From Aphrocallistes beatrix (Eukaryota > Porifera > Hexactinellida > Sceptrulophora > Aphrocallistidae): DNA of 64,000 nt. A program made the translations under genes and the position numbers. The DNA lies in the NCBI GenBank assembly GCA_963281255.1, contig OY725498.1:1-64000 (forward strand), in the 5' to 3' direction. The notes under the pieces are model-generated. The model was given only the letters and a program-made list of their open reading frames with translations, made no database searches and was not told the DNA's origin. Of this stretch, positions 1 to 37,668 are shown piece after piece; position 1 is the stretch's first letter, and the number at the start of each line of letters is the position of its first letter.

Positions 1-3000
1 AATGTCACTGTACACCCCCACAGGGATGAAAAATGCTCCAAATCACTGGCTATTTCAATGGCTTCCAAACTGAAAAGGCTCACTTTCACTTGGCTCTTAC
101 AGCGTTTCTTACAGAAAATGCCTAGCTTCGCTCTCATTTGGCCACATTCTTTTCTCAAAATGTCACTGTACACCCCCACAGGGATGAAAAATGCTCCAAA
201 TCACTGGCTATTTCAATGGCTTCCAAACTGAAAAGGCTCACTTTCACTTGGCTCTTACAGCGTTTCTTACAGAAAATGCCTAGCTTCGCTCTCATTTGGC
301 CACATTCTTTTCTCAAAATGTCACTGTACACCCCCACAGGGATGAAAAATGCTCCAAATCACTGGCTATTTCAATGGCTTCCAAACTGAAAAGGCTCACT
401 TTCACTTGGCTCTTACAGCGTTTCTTACAGAAAATGCCTAGCTTCGCTCTCATTTGGCCACATTCTTTTCTCAAAATGTCACTGTACACCCCCACAGGGA
501 TGAAAAATGCTCCAAATCACTGGCTATTTCAATGGCTTCCAAACTGAAAAGGCTCACTTTCACTTGGCTCTTACAGCGTTTCTTACAGAAAATGCCTAGC
601 TTCGCTCTCATTTGGCCACATTCTTTTCTCAAAATGTCACTGTACACCCCCACAGGGATGAAAAATGCTCCAAATCACTGGCTATTTCAATGGCTTCCAA
701 ACTGAAAAGGCTCACTTTCACTTGGCTCTTACAGCGTTTCTTACAGAAAATGCCTAGCTTCGCTCTCATTTGGCCACATTCTTTTCTCAAAATGTCACTG
801 TACACCCCCACAGGGATGAAAAATGCTCCAAATCACTGGCTATTTCAATGGCTTCCAAACTGAAAAGGCTCACTTTCACTTGGCTCTTACAGCGTTTCTT
901 ACAGAAAATGCCTAGCTTCGCTCTCATTTGGCCACATTCTTTTCTCAAAATGTCACTGTACACCCCCACAGGGATGAAAAATGCTCCAAATCACTGGCTA
1001 TTTCAATGGCTTCCAAACTGAAAAGGCTCACTTTCACTTGGCTCTTACAGCGTTTCTTACAGAAAATGCCTAGCTTCGCTCTCATTTGGCCACATTCTTT
1101 TCTCAAAATGTCACTGTACACCCCCACAGGGATGAAAAATGCTCCAAATCACTGGCTATTTCAATGGCTTCCAAACTGAAAAGGCTCACTTTCACTTGGC
1201 TCTTACAGCGTTTCTTACAGAAAATGCCTAGCTTCGCTCTCATTTGGCCACATTCTTTTCTCAAAATGTCACTGTACACCCCCACAGGGATGAAAAATGC
1301 TCCAAATCACTGGCTATTTCAATGGCTTCCAAACTGAAAAGGCTCACTTTCACTTGGCTCTTACAGCGTTTCTTACAGAAAATGCCTAGCTTCGCTCTCA
1401 TTTGGCCACATTCTTTTCTCAAAATGTCACTGTACACCCCCACAGGGATGAAAAATGCTCCAAATCACTGGCTATTTCAATGGCTTCCAAACTGAAAAGG
1501 CTCACTTTCACTTGGCTCTTACAGCGTTTCTTACAGAAAATGCCTAGCTTCGCTCTCATTTGGCCACATTCTTTTCTCAAAATGTCACTGTACACCCCCA
1601 CAGGGATGAAAAATGCTCCAAATCACTGGCTATTTCAATGGCTTCCAAACTGAAAAGGCTCACTTTCACTTGGCTCTTACAGCGTTTCTTACAGAAAATG
1701 CCTAGCTTCGCTCTCATTTGGCCACATTCTTTTCTCAAAATGTCACTGTACACCCCCACAGGGATGAAAAATGCTCCAAATCACTGGCTATTTCAATGGC
1801 TTCCAAACTGAAAAGGCTCACTTTCACTTGGCTCTTACAGCGTTTCTTACAGAAAATGCCTAGCTTCGCTCTCATTTGGCCACATTCTTTTCTCAAAATG
1901 TCACTGTACACCCCCACAGGGATGAAAAATGCTCCAAATCACTGGCTATTTCAATGGCTTCCAAACTGAAAAGGCTCACTTTCACTTGGCTCTTACAGCG
2001 TTTCTTACAGAAAATGCCTAGCTTCGCTCTCATTTGGCCACATTCTTTTCTCAAAATGTCACTGTACACCCCCACAGGGATGAAAAATGCTCCAAATCAC
2101 TGGCTATTTCAATGGCTTCCAAACTGAAAAGGCTCACTTTCACTTGGCTCTTACAGCGTTTCTTACAGAAAATGCCTAGCTTCGCTCTCATTTGGCCACA
2201 TTCTTTTCTCAAAATGTCACTGTACACCCCCACAGGGATGAAAAATGCTCCAAATCACTGGCTATTTCAATGGCTTCCAAACTGAAAAGGCTCACTTTCA
2301 CTTGGCTCTTACAGCGTTTCTTACAGAAAATGCCTAGCTTCGCTCTCATTTGGCCACATTCTTTTCTCAAAATGTCACTGTACACCCCCACAGGGATGAA
2401 AAATGCTCCAAATCACTGGCTATTTCAATGGCTTCCAAACTGAAAAGGCTCACTTTCACTTGGCTCTTACAGCGTTTCTTACAGAAAATGCCTAGCTTCG
2501 CTCTCATTTGGCCACATTCTTTTCTCAAAATGTCACTGTACACCCCCACAGGGATGAAAAATGCTCCAAATCACTGGCTATTTCAATGGCTTCCAAACTG
2601 AAAAGGCTCACTTTCACTTGGCTCTTACAGCGTTTCTTACAGAAAATGCCTAGCTTCGCTCTCATTTGGCCACATTCTTTTCTCAAAATGTCACTGTACA
2701 CCCCCACAGGGATGAAAAATGCTCCAAATCACTGGCTATTTCAATGGCTTCCAAACTGAAAAGGCTCACTTTCACTTGGCTCTTACAGCGTTTCTTACAG
2801 AAAATGCCTAGCTTCGCTCTCATTTGGCCACATTCTTTTCTCAAAATGTCACTGTACACCCCCACAGGGATGAAAAATGCTCCAAATCACTGGCTATTTC
2901 AATGGCTTCCAAACTGAAAAGGCTCACTTTCACTTGGCTCTTACAGCGTTTCTTACAGAAAATGCCTAGCTTCGCTCTCATTTGGCCACATTCTTTTCTC

Positions 3001-6000
3001 AAAATGTCACTGTACACCCCCACAGGGATGAAAAATGCTCCAAATCACTGGCTATTTCAATGGCTTCCAAACTGAAAAGGCTCACTTTCACTTGGCTCTT
3101 ACAGCGTTTCTTACAGAAAATGCCTAGCTTCGCTCTCATTTGGCCACATTCTTTTCTCAAAATGTCACTGTACACCCCCACAGGGATGAAAAATGCTCCA
3201 AATCACTGGCTATTTCAATGGCTTCCAAACTGAAAAGGCTCACTTTCACTTGGCTCTTACAGCGTTTCTTACAGAAAATGCCTAGCTTCGCTCTCATTTG
3301 GCCACATTCTTTTCTCAAAATGTCACTGTACACCCCCACAGGGATGAAAAATGCTCCAAATCACTGGCTATTTCAATGGCTTCCAAACTGAAAAGGCTCA
3401 CTTTCACTTGGCTCTTACAGCGTTTCTTACAGAAAATGCCTAGCTTCGCTCTCATTTGGCCACATTCTTTTCTCAAAATGTCACTGTACACCCCCACAGG
3501 GATGAAAAATGCTCCAAATCACTGGCTATTTCAATGGCTTCCAAACTGAAAAGGCTCACTTTCACTTGGCTCTTACAGCGTTTCTTACAGAAAATGCCTA
3601 GCTTCGCTCTCATTTGGCCACATTCTTTTCTCAAAATGTCACTGTACACCCCCACAGGGATGAAAAATGCTCCAAATCACTGGCTATTTCAATGGCTTCC
3701 AAACTGAAAAGGCTCACTTTCACTTGGCTCTTACAGCGTTTCTTACAGAAAATGCCTAGCTTCGCTCTCATTTGGCCACATTCTTTTCTCAAAATGTCAC
3801 TGTACACCCCCACAGGGATGAAAAATGCTCCAAATCACTGGCTATTTCAATGGCTTCCAAACTGAAAAGGCTCACTTTCACTTGGCTCTTACAGCGTTTC
3901 TTACAGAAAATGCCTAGCTTCGCTCTCATTTGGCCACATTCTTTTCTCAAAATGTCACTGTACACCCCCACAGGGATGAAAAATGCTCCAAATCACTGGC
4001 TATTTCAATGGCTTCCAAACTGAAAAGGCTCACTTTCACTTGGCTCTTACAGCGTTTCTTACAGAAAATGCCTAGCTTCGCTCTCATTTGGCCACATTCT
4101 TTTCTCAAAATGTCACTGTACACCCCCACAGGGATGAAAAATGCTCCAAATCACTGGCTATTTCAATGGCTTCCAAACTGAAAAGGCTCACTTTCACTTG
4201 GCTCTTACAGCGTTTCTTACAGAAAATGCCTAGCTTCGCTCTCATTTGGCCACATTCTTTTCTCAAAATGTCACTGTACACCCCCACAGGGATGAAAAAT
4301 GCTCCAAATCACTGGCTATTTCAATGGCTTCCAAACTGAAAAGGCTCACTTTCACTTGGCTCTTACAGCGTTTCTTACAGAAAATGCCTAGCTTCGCTCT
4401 CATTTGGCCACATTCTTTTCTCAAAATGTCACTGTACACCCCCACAGGGATGAAAAATGCTCCAAATCACTGGCTATTTCAATGGCTTCCAAACTGAAAA
4501 GGCTCACTTTCACTTGGCTCTTACAGCGTTTCTTACAGAAAATGCCTAGCTTCGCTCTCATTTGGCCACATTCTTTTCTCAAAATGTCACTGTACACCCC
4601 CACAGGGATGAAAAATGCTCCAAATCACTGGCTATTTCAATGGCTTCCAAACTGAAAAGGCTCACTTTCACTTGGCTCTTACAGCGTTTCTTACAGAAAA
4701 TGCCTAGCTTCGCTCTCATTTGGCCACATTCTTTTCTCAAAATGTCACTGTACACCCCCACAGGGATGAAAAATGCTCCAAATCACTGGCTATTTCAATG
4801 GCTTCCAAACTGAAAAGGCTCACTTTCACTTGGCTCTTACAGCGTTTCTTACAGAAAATGCCTAGCTTCGCTCTCATTTGGCCACATTCTTTTCTCAAAA
4901 TGTCACTGTACACCCCCACAGGGATGAAAAATGCTCCAAATCACTGGCTATTTCAATGGCTTCCAAACTGAAAAGGCTCACTTTCACTTGGCTCTTACAG
5001 CGTTTCTTACAGAAAATGCCTAGCTTCGCTCTCATTTGGCCACATTCTTTTCTCAAAATGTCACTGTACACCCCCACAGGGATGAAAAATGCTCCAAATC
5101 ACTGGCTATTTCAATGGCTTCCAAACTGAAAAGGCTCACTTTCACTTGGCTCTTACAGCGTTTCTTACAGAAAATGCCTAGCTTCGCTCTCATTTGGCCA
5201 CATTCTTTTCTCAAAATGTCACTGTACACCCCCACAGGGATGAAAAATGCTCCAAATCACTGGCTATTTCAATGGCTTCCAAACTGAAAAGGCTCACTTT
5301 CACTTGGCTCTTACAGCGTTTCTTACAGAAAATGCCTAGCTTCGCTCTCATTTGGCCACATTCTTTTCTCAAAATGTCACTGTACACCCCCACAGGGATG
5401 AAAAATGCTCCAAATCACTGGCTATTTCAATGGCTTCCAAACTGAAAAGGCTCACTTTCACTTGGCTCTTACAGCGTTTCTTACAGAAAATGCCTAGCTT
5501 CGCTCTCATTTGGCCACATTCTTTTCTCAAAATGTCACTGTACACCCCCACAGGGATGAAAAATGCTCCAAATCACTGGCTATTTCAATGGCTTCCAAAC
5601 TGAAAAGGCTCACTTTCACTTGGCTCTTACAGCGTTTCTTACAGAAAATGCCTAGCTTCGCTCTCATTTGGCCACATTCTTTTCTCAAAATGTCACTGTA
5701 CACCCCCACAGGGATGAAAAATGCTCCAAATCACTGGCTATTTCAATGGCTTCCAAACTGAAAAGGCTCACTTTCACTTGGCTCTTACAGCGTTTCTTAC
5801 AGAAAATGCCTAGCTTCGCTCTCATTTGGCCACATTCTTTTCTCAAAATGTCACTGTACACCCCCACAGGGATGAAAAATGCTCCAAATCACTGGCTATT
5901 TCAATGGCTTCCAAACTGAAAAGGCTCACTTTCACTTGGCTCTTACAGCGTTTCTTACAGAAAATGCCTAGCTTCGCTCTCATTTGGCCACATTCTTTTC

Positions 6001-9000
6001 TCAAAATGTCACTGTACACCCCCACAGGGATGAAAAATGCTCCAAATCACTGGCTATTTCAATGGCTTCCAAACTGAAAAGGCTCACTTTCACTTGGCTC
6101 TTACAGCGTTTCTTACAGAAAATGCCTAGCTTCGCTCTCATTTGGCCACATTCTTTTCTCAAAATGTCACTGTACACCCCCACAGGGATGAAAAATGCTC
6201 CAAATCACTGGCTATTTCAATGGCTTCCAAACTGAAAAGGCTCACTTTCACTTGGCTCTTACAGCGTTTCTTACAGAAAATGCCTAGCTTCGCTCTCATT
6301 TGGCCACATTCTTTTCTCAAAATGTCACTGTACACCCCCACAGGGATGAAAAATGCTCCAAATCACTGGCTATTTCAATGGCTTCCAAACTGAAAAGGCT
6401 CACTTTCACTTGGCTCTTACAGCGTTTCTTACAGAAAATGCCTAGCTTCGCTCTCATTTGGCCACATTCTTTTCTCAAAATGTCACTGTACACCCCCACA
6501 GGGATGAAAAATGCTCCAAATCACTGGCTATTTCAATGGCTTCCAAACTGAAAAGGCTCACTTTCACTTGGCTCTTACAGCGTTTCTTACAGAAAATGCC
6601 TAGCTTCGCTCTCATTTGGCCACATTCTTTTCTCAAAATGTCACTGTACACCCCCACAGGGATGAAAAATGCTCCAAATCACTGGCTATTTCAATGGCTT
6701 CCAAACTGAAAAGGCTCACTTTCACTTGGCTCTTACAGCGTTTCTTACAGAAAATGCCTAGCTTCGCTCTCATTTGGCCACATTCTTTTCTCAAAATGTC
6801 ACTGTACACCCCCACAGGGATGAAAAATGCTCCAAATCACTGGCTATTTCAATGGCTTCCAAACTGAAAAGGCTCACTTTCACTTGGCTCTTACAGCGTT
6901 TCTTACAGAAAATGCCTAGCTTCGCTCTCATTTGGCCACATTCTTTTCTCAAAATGTCACTGTACACCCCCACAGGGATGAAAAATGCTCCAAATCACTG
7001 GCTATTTCAATGGCTTCCAAACTGAAAAGGCTCACTTTCACTTGGCTCTTACAGCGTTTCTTACAGAAAATGCCTAGCTTCGCTCTCATTTGGCCACATT
7101 CTTTTCTCAAAATGTCACTGTACACCCCCACAGGGATGAAAAATGCTCCAAATCACTGGCTATTTCAATGGCTTCCAAACTGAAAAGGCTCACTTTCACT
7201 TGGCTCTTACAGCGTTTCTTACAGAAAATGCCTAGCTTCGCTCTCATTTGGCCACATTCTTTTCTCAAAATGTCACTGTACACCCCCACAGGGATGAAAA
7301 ATGCTCCAAATCACTGGCTATTTCAATGGCTTCCAAACTGAAAAGGCTCACTTTCACTTGGCTCTTACAGCGTTTCTTACAGAAAATGCCTAGCTTCGCT
7401 CTCATTTGGCCACATTCTTTTCTCAAAATGTCACTGTACACCCCCACAGGGATGAAAAATGCTCCAAATCACTGGCTATTTCAATGGCTTCCAAACTGAA
7501 AAGGCTCACTTTCACTTGGCTCTTACAGCGTTTCTTACAGAAAATGCCTAGCTTCGCTCTCATTTGGCCACATTCTTTTCTCAAAATGTCACTGTACACC
7601 CCCACAGGGATGAAAAATGCTCCAAATCACTGGCTATTTCAATGGCTTCCAAACTGAAAAGGCTCACTTTCACTTGGCTCTTACAGCGTTTCTTACAGAA
7701 AATGCCTAGCTTCGCTCTCATTTGGCCACATTCTTTTCTCAAAATGTCACTGTACACCCCCACAGGGATGAAAAATGCTCCAAATCACTGGCTATTTCAA
7801 TGGCTTCCAAACTGAAAAGGCTCACTTTCACTTGGCTCTTACAGCGTTTCTTACAGAAAATGCCTAGCTTCGCTCTCATTTGGCCACATTCTTTTCTCAA
7901 AATGTCACTGTACACCCCCACAGGGATGAAAAATGCTCCAAATCACTGGCTATTTCAATGGCTTCCAAACTGAAAAGGCTCACTTTCACTTGGCTCTTAC
8001 AGCGTTTCTTACAGAAAATGCCTAGCTTCGCTCTCATTTGGCCACATTCTTTTCTCAAAATGTCACTGTACACCCCCACAGGGATGAAAAATGCTCCAAA
8101 TCACTGGCTATTTCAATGGCTTCCAAACTGAAAAGGCTCACTTTCACTTGGCTCTTACAGCGTTTCTTACAGAAAATGCCTAGCTTCGCTCTCATTTGGC
8201 CACATTCTTTTCTCAAAATGTCACTGTACACCCCCACAGGGATGAAAAATGCTCCAAATCACTGGCTATTTCAATGGCTTCCAAACTGAAAAGGCTCACT
8301 TTCACTTGGCTCTTACAGCGTTTCTTACAGAAAATGCCTAGCTTCGCTCTCATTTGGCCACATTCTTTTCTCAAAATGTCACTGTACACCCCCACAGGGA
8401 TGAAAAATGCTCCAAATCACTGGCTATTTCAATGGCTTCCAAACTGAAAAGGCTCACTTTCACTTGGCTCTTACAGCGTTTCTTACAGAAAATGCCTAGC
8501 TTCGCTCTCATTTGGCCACATTCTTTTCTCAAAATGTCACTGTACACCCCCACAGGGATGAAAAATGCTCCAAATCACTGGCTATTTCAATGGCTTCCAA
8601 ACTGAAAAGGCTCACTTTCACTTGGCTCTTACAGCGTTTCTTACAGAAAATGCCTAGCTTCGCTCTCATTTGGCCACATTCTTTTCTCAAAATGTCACTG
8701 TACACCCCCACAGGGATGAAAAATGCTCCAAATCACTGGCTATTTCAATGGCTTCCAAACTGAAAAGGCTCACTTTCACTTGGCTCTTACAGCGTTTCTT
8801 ACAGAAAATGCCTAGCTTCGCTCTCATTTGGCCACATTCTTTTCTCAAAATGTCACTGTACACCCCCACAGGGATGAAAAATGCTCCAAATCACTGGCTA
8901 TTTCAATGGCTTCCAAACTGAAAAGGCTCACTTTCACTTGGCTCTTACAGCGTTTCTTACAGAAAATGCCTAGCTTCGCTCTCATTTGGCCACATTCTTT

Positions 9001-9440
9001 TCTCAAAATGTCACTGTACACCCCCACAGGGATGAAAAATGCTCCAAATCACTGGCTATTTCAATGGCTTCCAAACTGAAAAGGCTCACTTTCACTTGGC
9101 TCTTACAGCGTTTCTTACAGAAAATGCCTAGCTTCGCTCTCATTTGGCCACATTCTTTTCTCAAAATGTCACTGTACACCCCCACAGGGATGAAAAATGC
9201 TCCAAATCACTGGCTATTTCAATGGCTTCCAAACTGAAAAGGCTCACTTTCACTTGGCTCTTACAGCGTTTCTTACAGAAAATGCCTAGCTTCGCTCTCA
9301 TTTGGCCACATTCTTTTCTCAAAATGTCACTGTACACCCCCACAGGGATGAAAAATGCTCCAAATCACTGGCTATTTCAATGGCTTCCAAACTGAAAAGG
9401 CTCACTTTCACTTGGCTCTTACAGCGTTTCTTACAGAAAA
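1..9440. repeat. 158-bp satellite array, about 59.7 copies, open at left edge
   Basis: A 158-bp unit repeats head to tail from base 1 to 9440 and continues beyond the window. I found no variant unit: every copy gives the same translations in the same frames. 158 is not a multiple of 3, so a frame shifts at each copy and the 83-codon and 60-codon reading frames that recur once per unit are by-products, not genes. The last unit breaks off after CTTACAGAAAA, and unrelated sequence starts at 9441. Such uniformity implies recent amplification, gene conversion, or assembly from one consensus unit. The length is close to one nucleosome repeat, as in many centromeric or heterochromatic satellites, but a centromeric role is only a guess. 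Confidence 0.97.
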
Positions 9441-25320: not shown

Positions 25321-29583
<4,263 letters not shown>

Positions 29584-29718: not shown

Positions 29719-32700
29719 TTATGTGTCAGTCGTATCCAGGGTGTCCAGGTCCGACCCCGACTCCTTGGCCCGTCCCTCCCCGCTGCGGACGCAGAAGTTG
29801 GCGTAGGCGTCGAAGGACTCGAGGTAGCAGTACACGAAGTTGTAGCACATCTCCAGCTGCGCGACGGACCCCACAAGACGCGGCCTCTGAGTGCGCGCCT
29901 TCTTCAGGACCTGGAACACGTCCACCAGGTGCTCCGGCTTCAGCTTCTCCAGCACCGAGTACATCGTCACGAAGGTGCCGCTCCGCCCCATCCCGTCCCT
30001 AGCACGCGCGTAAACTCACAGCTCCATAGAGCTATTTATAGATCTCACAGCTGAGAGAGCTATTTATAGAACTCACCTGCAGTGCACCGTGATGGGCGGG
30101 TTCCGATTGGCTGCTTGTAGCTTCTCGATGGTGTTGATGATGGCGAGGAAAGGTGTCAGCTTCTCAGGTTCCGTGGAGTCCGGCCAATCGCGTAATCGGA
30201 TCTGCGTCACCTTCTTCTGATTCGTCACCTGCTCCATGGATACCATTAAACCACTTAGTTATGCTTAGATCAACCTAGACTTTTACGTACCTTGGACCCA
30301 ATGAACTTGTTGTGGAAGGAGAAGACGAGGTTCATTCTGTGCAGGATGAACCCCTCCTCCAGCTGCTCGTGCAGACTGGAGACTGAGTAGTTCCCGAAGC
30401 AGACAGTCTCGCCGGCGTCCGGCCAGTACTTGTAGCAGCTCTCCTGTAAACAAAAACAATTCTTGTTTACTTCTAGCAAATTAGAATGTCCGGAAATGAT
30501 GAGAAGCCATTGGACAGAAACACGCGGCAGGTCTGCTATCAGGCCAGAGACGCATTCTTCAGCTGCATCGACGGTAACCAAGGCAACGAGTCTGCGTGCG
30601 AGAAGGTGAAGGGCACATACCTGAGCGTCTGCCCGGCTACCTGGGTGAAGCACTTCAGAGAGAAGCGAATCTTCGACCAGAAAAAGGCGGAATTGGAGCG
30701 GCGAGGCTACCAAGACAGACCCACCTAACCTCATTAAATAGTTCCTGTACTCATGTGTTGCTAGGTTATTAGAATGAATGTGAAGTGTCTAAAAATAGCA
30801 CCTGTCCGTCCTCTTGCAGCTGGCACAGCATAACGATCACAGCTGACTCCTTCTCGTGCACCATCCGCCAGAAGTCCCCCACCGTCTCCTCCGAGGGCGA
30901 CTGCGCCACCAGATAGGCGCGCTTCCGCTTGTACCCCTACGACGATACTATAAATAGACTCACTACCTCGCCGTCATCTAACTATTACCATCTTATAACA
31001 TTAAGCAATGGCTGGCTAGCTAGCTAGTTGATAAGTTAGGTAGCTAGCTAGTTGATAAGTTAGTTAGCTAGCTAGTTGATAAGTTAGGTAGCTAGCTAGT
31101 TGATAAGTTAGTTAGCTAGCTAGTTGATAAGTTAGTTAGCTAGCTAGTTGATAAGTTAGGTAGCTAGCTAGTTGATAAGTTAGTTAGCTAGCTAGTTGAT
31201 AAGTTAGTTAGCTAGCTAGTTGATAAGTTAGGTAGCTAGCTAGTTGATAAGTTAGTTAGCTAGCTAGTTGATAAGTTAGTTAGCTAGCTAGTTGATAAGT
31301 TAGTTAGCTAGCTAGTTGATAAGTTAGGTAGCTAGCTAGTTGATTAGTTAGTTAGCTAGCTAGGTAGCTATTAAGATAGCACTCACATCTACGAAACTGG
31401 CGTTGATGTAGTCGGTATCTTCGTTGTTTCGCGGAGTTATTCGTACGCGCGAGTCGTCGTCTGTAAAAACAAGAAAATAAAGAATGATTCTATAAATAGA
31501 CATAGAAACAGGAACTCACAAGGAACGCGGTCTGGAAACCGGTTTTTGTGCCGGTTCGTTTCGACTTTGCCAAATGCGCAACTGTCCTCCGTGGGCTGAC
31601 GGCCGTACTCCTCTAGGAGCTGTGAACAATATAACGATAACAACTGGCACTTCCTCGATACGGATAGAGCGATTGGAATGCTTACCATGAACTGCTTCTG
31701 TAACGTGGACATCGCCTTTCCCTTGTAGCTGTCCCCCTCCTCGTCTCTGTAGCTATTTATAGTAGCAACGGCGATGTCGGACGGAATGCTGGTGTCGCCA
31801 CTCGTGACCAGCTCCACCAGCGCGTCGTGAATGAACACGTACTGCTCCTATAAATAGAACTGACGCGTCATGCGCGGGATTATTCTATAAATAGAGTCGT
31901 GAGTGAGTCTACCTCCGTCTGCACCATGAAGTTCCGCTTGCTGCGCATGAGCCGCACGAACTCGTACACGTTCACGTTGTCCTCCAGCTGGATGCGCTCC
32001 AGCATCGAGTTCAGCGTAATGTACGTCCCAGTCCTCCCCACGCCCGCACTACAGACAAACAGCTGTCAATCCTGTTCTGGATCAGCTGATTCCATTATGA
32101 ATCAGCTGATCCTGTCCTGAATCAGCTGATTGGCACTCACCTGCAGTGCACCACGTGCGGTCCCGTCGTGTCTGTCAGCTGATTCCGGTTCACTGTGCGG
32201 ATGAAGGCGATGAGACTGGTGGCGAACAGCGGCACTCCATGGTCCGGCCACACCGTGAAGTGGAAGTGCCGCACATCTAGGCTCTTTCCCCCAGCAACCT
32301 ATTCGGTGAAAGGAATGTTGAGTTTATATAAATATAAGCATTCTAACTGAATGTATAGAGTGTTATCAGCCCTAGCAACAACATCTCCCGTGAGGAATTT
32401 GAGAATGTTCTCCCAGTACAAGCCCCAGCCGAGAGGGTCGGAGTTCTCGTTCGAGTTCCGCCAGTTCCTCTCCGACGGAGACCAGCTGGTCTCGCCCATG
32501 CACGACGTGCCGCTGCTGGCCAATCAGGACGAGCGCTGGTACAACATGGTGGTGGAGGTGCCGCGCTGGTCGAGCGCCAAAATGGAGATCGCGACCAAAG
32601 AGCCGCTGACGCCGATCAAGCAGGACGTGAAGAAGGGCAAGCTGAGGTGAGCTAAAAATAGATTGCCCCACCGTGCTCATCCAATCCTTGCTCAGGTTCG

Positions 32701-35700
32701 TGAACAGCTGCTTCCCGTACCGCGGCTATCTCTGGAACTACGGCGCCCTCCCGCAGACCTGGGAGGACCCCGAGCACCTGGACCCGCGGACCTCCGCGAA
32801 GGGCGACAACGACCCCCTCGACGTGTGCGAGCTGGGCTCCCGCGTGGGTCTGCGCGGGGAAGTGAAGCGCGTGAAGCTGCTGGGCGCGCTGGCCATGATC
32901 GACGAGGGCGAGACGGACTGGAAGCTTTTGGCGGTGGACGTAGCCGACCCGCTGGCCGCGCAGCTGGGCTCGCTGGAGGACGTGGAGCGGCTGATGCCCG
33001 GCCTGCTCCGCCACACCTTCAGATGGTTCCAGATCTACAAGGTAGCCTCCCTCGCGACCGCACTGCTGCGTAGTTATGCGTCCCTTCTAGATCCCGACCG
33101 GCAAGCCTCCGACTCAGTTCGGCCTGGACGGAAAGTTCCAATCCGCCGAGTTCGCGCGGGGCGTGGTGGAGGAGACGCACGCGCAGTGGCAGCGTCTGAT
33201 TGGCGGAGAGGTGAAGGGGAACGGCGGTCTGGACATCCGGAACACCAGCATCAAGGGCTCCCCCGGCTACCTCAGCCAATCAGAAGCCAAGGCCTTTCTA
33301 GAGGGACACCCCGCCCCAGGGCCCCCTGCCCCCATCCCCGAGTCAGCTGATCTGGTCGACTTCGTGAAGGATTTCTAAACTTAGAACTTTAGGAACTATT
33401 TTTGGAATATTTGAGTTAGATTATTCGATGTAGTGATTCAGTAGAAATATCCAACAATGACGTCATAGATCCTAATCTGTCCCAGTTAGAATGAATCAGC
33501 TGTTCAGACTCAGGTCTCAGGTCTGCACCAATCAGCTGTGCAGGAATTACTTGCGGTTAGGCGGGCACTATAACAAGGAGTTCAAGCAGACCACCCAGGA
33601 CGGAGAGGTGCTAGGCTGGCACAGGTGTGAAGAAGGAGTGCACGCATTCCCGCGCGACAAGATAGCGGGACACAGGCGGGTGGGACTAATGGGCGTGAAA
33701 ATCGGCGTCACGAACATGTGGCACAAGTTCAGCGGGGAACAAATCATATGCACCATCATCCAGGTACATCCATGGTTCTAGTCCGCCTAGCCGCTAGCCA
33801 ATGGGCTCATCGGGTTCCTCCGCAGGTGTTGGAGAACCACGTGGTGCAGATGCGCAGTCTCACGTACCACGACGAAGTGGCGATGCTGGTGGGGACGGGG
33901 GACCTGCCGTGGCCGGGACCACCCAAGGAGCGCGCCATGCTGACGGAGCAGGAGTGGCGGCAGCAGCTGAAGGACGAGGCGAAGGAGGTCATGTGTCGCC
34001 GGGCGGGCGTCCCGTTCAAGAGGTTCATCGGGAAGTTCCCCGTCTCGCTGGACGGCCTGCTGCCGCCGGGCACGGCGCTGGACACCTCGCACCTACGCGT
34101 GGGGCAGTTCGTAGACGCGCTGGGCATCACCAGGGACAAGGGCTTCCAGGGCGTCATGAAGCGCTGGGGCTTCCACGGAATGCCCGCCTCCCACGGACAG
34201 ACCAAGACGCACCGGAAGATGGGAAACGTAGCCTCCAGCGGGATGGGCCGCGTCTGGAAGGGGACCAAGATGCCCGGGCACATGGGCAACGACCTCCTGT
34301 GAGTTCTATAAATAGATTCTACAGCCAGCTGTGTTATAAATAGACTCTAGGAGCTGTGCTATAAATAGCTCGGTTCTAAAGATAGCCTCGTTTAGGATGA
34401 AGTGGGCGATGCAGGTGGTGCGGATCAACCACCGGCTGGGGCTGGTGTACCTGCACGGGGCCATCCCCGGGACCAAGGGGGAGTCGTGGGTGCAGCTGAG
34501 GGACTCTCTCCACCGTCCGACGACCGCGGAGCTGCCGGTGCTGCCCTTCCCCACCAGCGCCCTGGAGGCGCTCCCCTGCGAGGAGATCTGCGACGCGGTG
34601 CACGCGCCGGGAGAGGAGAATCTGCGGTTCTCGCTGGACACCAGCCGCATGGGCGAGCACCTCAGACTCTCCGTCGAGACCCGCAAGCGCGAGGTCTGGG
34701 ACTTTGACATTCCAGAAAAGAAAGACTAGTTTGTTGTTGTTGTTTGTTTGTTTACGGAGAATGACTGCACTTACCGTGGAGACTGTCAGGTCCCGAATGA
34801 TGTAGTCGGACAGCTGGGTTTCTTTCTGCATTTTGACGGACATCAGTCCCAGCTGCAGTTCCTGGTCCAGCTCCTCCGGCCAGTACTTGTCGCACTTGGT
34901 GCGCTCGTTCTATAAATAGAACAGTTCTAAGTTTAGCTTCTAAGGGAACCAGGGCGAGGCATTTATTCTTAGAAACATAACTGACAAAACTTAGTGCCCG
35001 GACGAAAGTATTCTACCACCGCAGAAATCTCCATACAAATATTATTAACATGGATATACTGTATATAAGGCCGCACAGTAACTTGCGGATTTGGGACTAG
35101 GGATGCGGTAGAAGATGGTTGAACTAATACATGAGCTGCCTTAAATAATTAACAAAGCACAATAGAGCTTAGGAATGTATTACCAGCAAATATAAATATG
35201 TCAAAGTACCCATATCCGTTGTTAAAATTGAGATTAGTCACCATAGGTTGCGCAATAGGTTATATTTGTGACAAATTTGGTGATTTTCAGAGGCCGTTTA
35301 GGGGCACTTCTAACTGTTTTTATTATAAGATTATTCACTTAGAACTGAGATTTGAATGTGTTGGAATTTTTTCATGGAATGTTGCTATGGAAACGTGTTT
35401 TGGTCAGTTGGGGTCATATCTTGAAAACCGCAAGAGCTAGACATTCAAATGTAATTCCATTTGATAGCAAATAGACTACTTCCTATTAGGCAATTATATA
35501 ATTACTACACCTCGATTTTACAATTTTAATAAATCATCTCTCTGCCATTTGTGTCGCTTATCACCACTTGGAGAGTGGCACAATAACGGAATTATAAATC
35601 TTAAATTTGGCTTCAAAGTTGGAACTTTGCATGCTGCACACCTCTAAACCAATCAAAAAATGCAAAATAATGTATTTATTTGTCGTTTCGATTCCATGAA

Positions 35701-37668
35701 ACAGCTTATGGATTGTCACACCCTAGCAACACATGATGTACTCAATAATGTAGCACTCACTCCGACTATGTCGTATTCCTTGATGTTGGTTACCATGACG
35801 ATGTTCTGGCATTTCACTTCCCACACCATTCGCCAGAAATCCTCCAGCGTCTCCAGCAGTGGACCTACACACTCAGCGCTAAATTTAGCTCCAAACTGCT
35901 ATAAATAGCTCTTACCTTGGGCTGCAATGAACTTGTTAGGATCCCTGTATCCCTACAAAATGATCCGAATTCCATCATTCATTCATTCAGCCAATCAATC
36001 AATCAACCAACCAACCAATCAACTCACATCGATGTAGTTGGCGTTAATGTAGTCTGAGTTCTCCTTTCCTGGTAGGGCCATTAGCCTCACTCTTGAATGG
36101 TCGTCTACAAATAACGCAAATGAAAGTCAGCTGTTTCAGCTCGGTCAGCTGATCGCTACTTACATGGCACGATGTTCCTGTATCTGTTCTTGTGTCGGTT
36201 TCCGTCCAGCTGGGAGGCTTGGAAGGTTGCCTGAGGCGCCATTTCGAGACTCTATTACGCGACAGAATCACATACCAGGAGTAGATAGTGTCGCTATGCA
36301 GCCCCTAGTTACCTGGTACTCCATGTGGAATCCTTGGCTCATGTCTTCGTGTAGCTTCTTCACGTGCTCCGGAAGTGCCGGTACGGCAATCGGCAGCAGC
36401 CGCCTATGGACTGAAAATCAGCTGATCAGTAGGCAGTACAAGTACATAGCCAATCAACTGATCCGTGGGTAAGCCATGCGACGCCACTTGTTAACGCAGT
36501 TGCTCGTAAATGAATGGCAGACCTATTTAGAATTGAACTAGCAGCTAACTACGAGCACAGCCAATACAGGATTTGCTCGAATGCAGTTCGAAGTGTTTGC
36601 TAAAGAACCTCAAAGCGAGGAACAAATATTGATGTCTACCTACGTTATGATTCTACCACAGTGGCAGTTCTATAAATAGCTCTACTCTATAAATAGACTC
36701 ACGCATCTCGCTCATGAATGGCTGGTCTGGGTTGGCCCCGCCGTCCATGTCCATCATCTGGCTGCCCAGCATCACACTCTTGCGCATGCCCCGCGGCTTG
36801 TCCTTCAGCTGCAGCCCCTCCCCCTCCGTCTGGCTGGGAGACCTGCCCAGCAGCGCCAGGTACCACGGTATCGTGGACTTCCTCTTAGCATACCTAGGAC
36901 ACATTACGGTAACTATGATACACGATCAGTGATTGGAATGTCGTTGCTGTATTACCATATCCCGCACGCTATCACCAGAGCTAACACTACGATCAGTAAG
37001 ATTATGATCACTGCGAAACTAACAGCAAACGCGATTGCGGCCTGGTTCGCTCCGACCCCAGGCGCCCCTGAGCTGCCAGCTGTCGTGGAGAGAGGCGTAG
37101 GCGTAGGCGCCAAACTGGGACTAACACTTGAGCTAGTTCCCGGCACAATACCGACCGTTTCTGTGGTTTCTTCTGGCGGTACACTGCTCTGCGGACTGAA
37201 TGATGACGTCAGAATTGGAGATGACGAGGGGATTAGTACGACACTAGATGATGGCGTTGATGCTACAGTTAACATGAGTGATGACGTAGCACTCAGCAGG
37301 AGTGATGTCGTAGCGTTTAACATGCGTGATGTCGTAGCGTTTAACATGCGTGATGCCGTAGCGTTTAACATGAGTGATGTCGTAGCGTTTAACATGGGTG
37401 ATGACGTAGAGTTTAGCATGGGTGATGACGTAGAGTTTAGCATGGGTGATGACGTAGCGTTGATCATGATGCTAACTGTCGTCGAGTTAAATAGGATGCT
37501 TGACGTCATTGCCATGGCTACACTGCTGGTAGACACGGGGCTGGGAGAGGGAGTTGCCATTAGACTGGATACAGAGGATGTCATCATTGTGGATTGAAGT
37601 GTCCCCGGTTGTGCACTGAACAGGAGACACAGTGCGGTGAAGTAACAGCTGATCTGCTTCCTGCGCAT
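29719..37668 (-). CDS. Receptor-type protein tyrosine phosphatase with tandem catalytic domains
   Basis: Seventeen exons: 37668-36956, 36893-36703, 36410-36313, 36230-36164, 36104-36028, 35952-35916, 35864-35761, 34909-34775, 32298-32141, 32048-31913, 31847-31686, 31619-31520, 31460-31387, 30936-30802, 30443-30291, 30228-30077 and 29998-29719, joining to 923 residues. A signal peptide is followed by a Ser/Thr-rich, N-glycosylation-rich ectodomain of about 185 residues without Ig or FN3 domains, and a membrane helix near 210-233. D1 has [17 protein letters not shown] (Asp about 493) and [10 protein letters not shown] (Cys about 526). D2 has KNRF, WPDSTEP (Asp about 797) and [10 protein letters not shown] (Cys about 830). 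It resembles short-ectodomain receptors such as PTPRA and PTPRE, which remove phosphate from tyrosine at the plasma membrane. Three opposite-strand genes lie in its introns. Confidence 0.94.
30486..30728 (+). CDS. COA6: COA6-like cytochrome c oxidase assembly factor
   Basis: One exon of 80 residues. It has a twin-cysteine CHCH pattern, CX9C (Cys17, Cys27) followed by CX10C (Cys38, Cys49), the spacing of COA6. The context [17 protein letters not shown] and [13 protein letters not shown] also matches the family. COA6 is a mitochondrial intermembrane-space protein needed to metallate the copper site of cytochrome oxidase subunit 2. The whole gene sits on the opposite strand in a 358-bp intron of the receptor phosphatase (30801-30444). 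Only 42 bp lie between the flanking exon and its ATG, so its promoter must overlap that exon. It ends about 70 bp before the next phosphatase exon. Confidence 0.88.
   Translation: MSGNDEKPLDRNTRQVCYQARDAFFSCIDGNQGNESACEKVKGTYLSVCPATWVKHFREKRIFDQKKAELERRGYQDRPT
31006..31368. repeat. 24-bp tandem repeat in receptor-phosphatase intron, about 15 copies
   Basis: The unit is TAGCTAGCTAGTTGATAAGT plus TAGT or TAGG, repeated almost exactly. It fills most of the intron between the exons at 31387-31460 and 30802-30936. It is rich in the palindrome GCTAGC. Confidence 0.93.
32351..33378 (+). CDS. PPA2: Inorganic pyrophosphatase, probably mitochondrial
   Basis: Three exons: 32351-32646, 32696-33041 and 33091-33378, giving 309 residues. 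The N-terminus is Arg/Ser/Leu-rich without acids for about 20 residues, like a mitochondrial targeting peptide. Family I signature DNDPLDVCE carries the metal-binding aspartates, and [20 protein letters not shown] precedes it. The C-terminal half of the eukaryotic enzyme is present. The enzyme hydrolyses pyrophosphate to two phosphates with Mg2+, pulling biosynthetic reactions forward. It lies inside a receptor-phosphatase intron on the opposite strand, its ATG 52 bp from the phosphatase exon, and is followed 112 bp later by uL3m. The mitochondrial assignment rests on the leader only. Confidence 0.92.
33491..34729 (+). CDS. MRPL3: Mitochondrial large-subunit ribosomal protein uL3m
   Basis: Three exons: 33491-33763, 33826-34298 and 34396-34729, giving 359 residues. 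The N-terminus is basic, like a targeting peptide. The uL3 core includes [20 protein letters not shown], the [20 protein letters not shown] stretch, and the Gly/His/Lys loop ([19 protein letters not shown]) that reaches toward the peptidyl-transferase centre in known ribosomes. It is the second of two tandem plus-strand genes filling one receptor-phosphatase intron. Its stop is 45 bp from the phosphatase exon at 34775. The ATG is preceded by CCCAGTTAGA, an acceptor-like context. Confidence 0.93.
34910..35760. other. Receptor-phosphatase intron 7, no nested gene seen
   Basis: The 851-bp intron is AT-rich. A copy of CTATAAATAG stands at the acceptor end (34910). No conserved reading frame or repeat was recognised in it. 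Confidence 0.5.
37270..37460. repeat. Coding repeat of the receptor-phosphatase ectodomain
   Basis: A unit of 24-30 bp, read on the minus strand, encodes about eight copies of MLNATTS or MLNSTSS. Each carries an N-glycosylation sequon in a Ser/Thr-rich context. The near-identical copies suggest recent in-frame slippage. Confidence 0.85.

Follow-up and report, generated by a model that had tools for sequence, protein, structure and literature searches.

Three genes nested antisense in two introns of a receptor tyrosine phosphatase gene of the glass sponge Aphrocallistes beatrix

The window analysed here is a stretch of 64,000 nucleotides of the glass sponge Aphrocallistes beatrix. Within it a single receptor-type tyrosine phosphatase gene – hereafter the host – carries three other genes in two of its introns, all on the opposite strand. 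The features of the locus are as follows.

29719..37668, minus strand: host receptor-type tyrosine phosphatase; 17 exons, 923 aa; ATG at 37668, stop at 29719
34774..32299, minus strand: host intron 8; 2476 bp, phase 0, interrupting the first phosphatase domain (D1)
30801..30444, minus strand: host intron 14; 358 bp, phase 0, interrupting the second phosphatase domain (D2)
30486..30728, plus strand: COA6 gene in intron 14; single exon, 80 aa, CX9C-CX10C
32351..33378, plus strand: soluble inorganic pyrophosphatase gene in intron 8; exons 32351-32646, 32696-33041 and 33091-33378; 309 aa
33379..33490, plus strand: spacer between the pyrophosphatase stop and the uL3m ATG; 112 bp, with TGTCCCAGTTAGA at its end, before the ATG
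33491..34729, plus strand: uL3m (MRPL3) gene in intron 8; exons 33491-33763, 33826-34298 and 34396-34729; 359 aa
32299..32350, both strands: 52 bp of dual use; host 3′ splice site and, on the opposite strand, the pyrophosphatase 5′ flank with TATATAAATATAAG

All 16 introns of the host model are of the GT-AG type, and the reading frame is open from start to stop. The protein matches PF00102 in two stretches (Pfam, E 2.1e-152; best over residues 345-584), and its best matches in the PDB are the receptor phosphatases S, F/LAR and alpha. Read by eye, the N-terminal part is a Ser/Thr-rich ectodomain with short repeats, followed by a hydrophobic transmembrane stretch; the C-terminal part comprises D1 and D2 in tandem, the motifs of both being read by eye in the translation. 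The combination of a transmembrane stretch with tandem PF00102 domains, and HCX5R in D1, identifies a receptor tyrosine phosphatase. Intron 8 falls between KCDKYWP and WPDHG, with D1 motifs on either side, and introns 8 and 14 are each flanked by exons of a single domain, which argues strongly against two genes. The earlier note on this DNA had allowed that the phosphatase might prove to be two genes split at the 2476-bp intron; that intron lies inside D1, and the host is one gene.

The entire coding region of COA6, of the pyrophosphatase and of uL3m lies in each case within one host intron. The spliced model, along with Pfam, thus bears out the arrangement that the earlier note had described – three antisense genes within introns of one phosphatase – and the splice model agrees with its coordinates for the host and all three nested genes. 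Its figure of about 96% for the filling of the 2476-bp intron likewise holds, provided that the spacer is counted: measured from the ATG of the pyrophosphatase through the stop of uL3m, the nested stretch takes up 2379 bp (96%), whereas the two genes minus the spacer account for 91.6%. The COA6 coding sequence occupies 68% of intron 14. Host exons are close at hand on every side: COA6 is separated from them by 42 and 73 bp, the start of the pyrophosphatase by 52 bp and the stop of uL3m by 45 bp. With the nested spans subtracted, introns 8 and 14 measure 97 and 115 bp, close to the range of 51-92 bp into which 11 of the host's 14 gene-free introns fall. The three longer gene-free introns include intron 7 (851 bp), which contains a dispersed repeat, and intron 13 (450 bp), which contains a 24-bp tandem array (window 31017-31363, 14.5 copies). 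A further 24-bp array, of 23.9 copies, is found at window 28669-29230, where it seems to occupy an intron of the gene that ends at 29583.

A partial survey by Pfam of 20 open reading frames (ORFs) elsewhere in the window recognised no further nested gene. One candidate for a fourth, a plus-strand ORF in intron 7 (about 35195-35437) that we presumed by eye to resemble the complex I subunit NDUFB1, was rejected: it has no Pfam match up to E 10 and lies in the dispersed repeat. This repeat (window 35057-35503, about 450 bp) has at least 80 listed matches, itself included, a lower bound given that 40 of 2490 candidates were scored; its copies are often paired in inverted orientation with about 100 bp between them, in the manner of a foldback-like element. 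Other repetition is evident at the very start of the contig (C12), where window 1-9440 is a satellite with a 158-bp unit in 59.7 copies and 100% matches. Three short motifs are over-represented in 172 kb comprising window 9501-64000 and loci L005-L036, some of which overlap: CTATAAATAG (26 against 0.6 expected; 23 in the window alone), AATCAGCTG (54 against 2.5; 48 in the window alone, 21 of them in one tandem array) and TGACGTCAT (31 against 0.8; 18 in the window alone). Several copies of these motifs adjoin splice sites, as judged by eye.

Something of the history of the locus can be read from the rest of the genome (100.5 Mb in 28 contigs were searched). Beyond the nested gene, a single pyrophosphatase-like place was found, C14:1923018-1923538, and it proved to be a decayed copy of part of the locus: exon 9 and intron 9 of the phosphatase, along with a portion of exon 10, are present antisense to the 5′ part of the pyrophosphatase. 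The copy is 87% identical over 437 bp and is marred by stops (one piece has three TAG codons in frame), by small gaps and by the loss of a stretch. Because it keeps the nested layout, the nesting is older than the copying, and an assembly error is unlikely. The region of this decayed segmental copy (C14:1921518-1924865) adjoins what by eye is a LINE-like endonuclease stretch.

Of six multi-exon phosphatase loci fetched, two – L039 and L040 – were inspected at the position of intron 8, and both have a phase 0 intron there. That of L039 is 64 bp, too small for a gene; that of L040 is 324 bp, and no nested gene was seen in it. No intron interrupts the match at this position in L043 or in the second domain of L039. 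Judged from the paralogous introns only, insertion into short introns would be the simplest reading, with loss in the paralogues as the alternative. The pyrophosphatase and uL3m genes are not processed retrocopies, since both have introns of their own. No named Oopsacas protein appeared among the best 120 of 7994 matches to the host protein, where the highest identity was 44%, nor among the best 120 matches to uL3m. Dense tyrosine phosphatase arrays, mostly long two-domain open frames and apparently intronless, are present at G000 C15:65000-277000 and C2:51000-87000.

The family membership of two of the nested genes is straightforward. COA6 matches PF02297 (E 8.2e-19); its best three PDB matches are named COA6 homolog, followed by ATPEG5 and COX6B/COX12 types, so that this CX9C-CX10C protein is closer to COA6 than to COX6B. 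An ATTAAA begins at the fifth base past its stop. The genome search gave one further COX6B-family match, at C1:50453, which is a separate gene. uL3m matches PF00297 (E 1.9e-20) and belongs to the mitochondrial branch, the named matches among its best 120 being mostly animal mitochondrial L3; its first 25 residues include four R/K and no D/E.

The compartment of the pyrophosphatase (PF00719, E 1e-44) is a more delicate matter. The protein shares 70% identity with its counterpart in the glass sponge Oopsacas minuta and at most 58% with the other listed matches, a glass-sponge affinity read from this one protein. Residues 1-18 are presequence-like and are followed by Met19; the four R/K and absence of D/E in residues 1-25 suit a presequence. 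The models from Oopsacas and Ephydatia start at the position of Met19 and have no such extension, and residue 3 of the solved pyrophosphatase 6c45 (289 aa) aligns to residue 22 of the query. The start context is the better one at Met19, with A at -3 as against T for the first ATG. Among 120 listed relatives 98 hold the anchor motif used, and 54 of these 98 have a long N-terminus; a Met lies 21-40 residues ahead of the anchor in 50 of the 54, compared with 8 of 54 for the next 20 residues and 53 of 54 for a second control, 10-30 residues past the anchor start, where there is a conserved-core Met. Protein and PF00719 searches of the genome found no second intact soluble pyrophosphatase and only one decayed duplicate, the C14 place, whose in-frame TAGs, gaps and missing stretch led us to reject it as a second, cytosolic enzyme. 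There is thus one intact PF00719 gene, not a PPA2 gene separate from a cytosolic PPA1. Being the only intact copy found, and having an internal Met at the start of the cytosolic form, the pyrophosphatase probably serves both cytosol and mitochondria by way of alternative starts. Where the earlier note spoke of three mitochondrial proteins, the description stands, by family, for COA6 and uL3m, and is probably too narrow for a pyrophosphatase that looks dual.

Taken together our data point, with a probability of about 0.8, to an ordinary nested-gene locus of a compact genome, in which short genes occupy short introns of a receptor phosphatase for mostly neutral reasons and share a theme mostly by chance. 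COA6, and the pyrophosphatase and uL3m as one piece or as two, would have come antisense into pre-existing short introns. They would have been kept since antisense nesting spares host splicing, the signals for which fit into the 42-73 bp left at either end. Each nested gene probably has a promoter of its own and is read from the strand opposite the host; this promoter probably lies within the short flank and the adjoining host exon. In altered form, the TATATAAATATAAG stretch before the pyrophosphatase can be recognised in the C14 copy as well. The earlier note held that the promoters must overlap host exons: with 42 bp available to COA6 and 52 bp to the pyrophosphatase, geometry makes this likely for these two genes, but nothing forces it. 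Core promoters could instead lie in the 5′ coding region of the nested genes themselves, and uL3m could be carried by read-through from the pyrophosphatase. Given the short flanks, overlap of the UTRs of the nested genes with host exons is possible. We considered whether TTAGAATG marks the start sites of the nested genes and rejected the idea (12 observed against 8.3 expected).

An alternative that we regard as unlikely is that the pyrophosphatase and uL3m form an operon-like transcript antisense in the intron, the 5′ end of uL3m being made by spliced-leader trans-splicing. The two genes lie on one strand, separated by a 112-bp spacer in which a search for nine variants of the poly(A) signal found none, and an acceptor-like CAG stands just upstream of the uL3m ATG. 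Moreover, a trans-spliced leader is reported for the glass sponge A. vastus in the available part of its genome paper (PMC10282587), and a parallel exists in the operon-like tandem of uL13m and uL24m, which lie on one strand 131 bp apart (L066:2124-3610; C7:1148000-1154600). However, the lack of a poly(A) signal is uninformative, because the listed signals are absent also from the 45 bp between uL3m and host exon 8 – for which reason the uL3m mRNA probably runs into exon 8 or uses another signal – and what then speaks for an operon is spacing, the CAG site and a parallel, all read from sequence. In A. vastus, furthermore, the leader is reported on only 4% of long reads (same source and part). 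The broader proposition, that this antisense operon with its spliced leader is part of a wider glass-sponge habit of tandem mitochondrial pairs, some of them nested, strikes us as a shade more doubtful. If the pair were an operon, polycistronic mitochondrial gene expression would be added to sponges.

That one host holds two certain mitochondrial proteins and one probable one, their coding sequences pressed close to its exons, raises the prospect of selection for shared or host-coupled expression: three mitochondrial genes coordinated, or tied to signalling by antisense interference. We think this improbable. One measure comes from a small comparison sample, seven mitochondrial genes (uL4m, uS7m, uS9m, uS11m, uL13m, its neighbour uL24m, and COX6B) and five cytosolic ones (uL4, uS7, uS9, uS11 and uL13), the mitochondrial and cytosolic member of each pair being assigned from the sequences. 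A single one of the seven is nested, about the published rate for one glass sponge (12.4%).

L051:2544-5214 (C11:3163500-3171000), antisense to an Ig/FN3 host: nested uL4m, from ORFs and Pfam

Like uL3m, this second mitoribosomal gene sits antisense in a gene of cell-surface type, a point in favour of coupling; the intron it occupies measures 1635 bp, interrupts an Ig domain and lies between the Ig and FN3 exons. Five in-frame options exist for the splice of its host, and the one chosen (GTGAGA donor, TAG acceptor) completes the Ig domain, joining NNYRCE to ATNAVGVSERSV. An EMC6 gene (L051:428-742, plus strand) 1.8 kb past the FN3 exon may be nested as well. The ORF lists, with partial use of Pfam, gave uS7m, uS9m, uS11m, uL13m, uL24m and COX6B as not recognisably nested; COX6B, whose four scanned neighbour ORFs have no Pfam match, is not thereby established as un-nested. 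None of the five cytosolic genes is recognisably nested, their neighbours being judged by eye. These calls rest on ORFs of 55 aa or more (in L051, L052 and L055, 75 aa or more), from which hosts with short exons could escape; Pfam was applied, in part, to the neighbours of uL4m, COX6B, uS7m and uS9m, and those of the remaining genes, including all cytosolic ones, were assessed by eye.

A second measure is a chance model with the nested-gene counts of the ctenophore Hormiphora (2357 genes in 1654 hosts), geometrically distributed, and an assumed mitochondrial fraction of 5, 8 or 12%. A host in which three or more mitochondrial genes are nested arises at least once in 6, 18 and 48% of runs, respectively, and hosts with at least two average 2.3, 6.0 and 12.9. 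A triple of this kind would, on the model, be only mildly unlikely, although the 6% of runs at the 5% fraction leaves some mitochondrial enrichment possible. With the pyrophosphatase dual – it is the only intact soluble one found – little beyond chance is left to explain, and still less if it moved with uL3m as one piece. Studies of nested pairs elsewhere point both ways: expression divergence is raised in Drosophila and not significant in mammals, according to the accessible part of one survey (PMC8467205). The earlier note had proposed selection for shared expression or a preference of housekeeping genes for insertion here; the 64-bp intron of L039, that of L040 with no nested gene seen, the one nested gene in seven and the mild verdict of the chance model lend support to neither. 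We attribute the theme, tentatively, mostly to chance and to an eye that seeks themes.

That the nesting is only apparent, the phosphatase being two genes or the assembly a chimera, has next to no claim on belief: both gene-bearing introns lie within phosphatase domains with a frame continuous across them, in the C14 copy exon 9 of the host, and exon 10 in part, keep their arrangement relative to the antisense pyrophosphatase, and nothing in support was found.

Read as an ordinary nested-gene locus, the stretch is a clean and compact example of gene packing into introns in animal genomes: in a receptor gene whose introns mostly measure 51-92 bp, two introns accommodate some 2.6 kb of other genes. 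The empty paralogous intron and the decayed duplicate make part of the order of events readable. The locus as it stands does not demonstrate functional coupling. Nested genes are of a known kind, and this is a neat further example.

As to the pyrophosphatase, single-gene enzymes of two compartments are known from invertebrates, Drosophila Nurf-38 being the type. The gene described here, whose dual location is a prediction, resembles them in having a presequence-like extension and, where the cytosolic form would start, an internal Met; it differs in being nested.

For the nesting itself there is ample precedent. Our search of the literature – mostly titles and the openings of abstracts – found no account of this locus or of a mitochondrial theme among nested genes. 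The term "nested" is absent from the part of the Oopsacas genome paper available (PMC10280926). The corresponding part of the A. vastus paper gives only 83 nested genes for the Oopsacas annotation and blames low counts in some genomes on annotation method; for A. vastus, which shows microsynteny to Oopsacas, it reports 2432 nested genes among 19 578, or 12.4% (PMC10282587). In Hormiphora californensis there are 2357 nested genes in 1654 hosts, one host having four (PMC8527503, in part). Opposite strands are the majority among simple nested pairs, at 74.3% in human and 77.8% in mouse, and the antisense orientation seen here is thus shared with the mammalian and Drosophila pairs; the internal genes of those pairs are typically short and intronless, whereas two of our three have introns (PMC8467205, in part). 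Like the nested genes of A. vastus and Hormiphora, those of A. beatrix are compact genes within an intron of another gene and, as in Hormiphora, several share a host. What sets the locus apart from both is the mitochondrial theme of its three genes and a 2476-bp intron nearly filled by two multi-exon genes.
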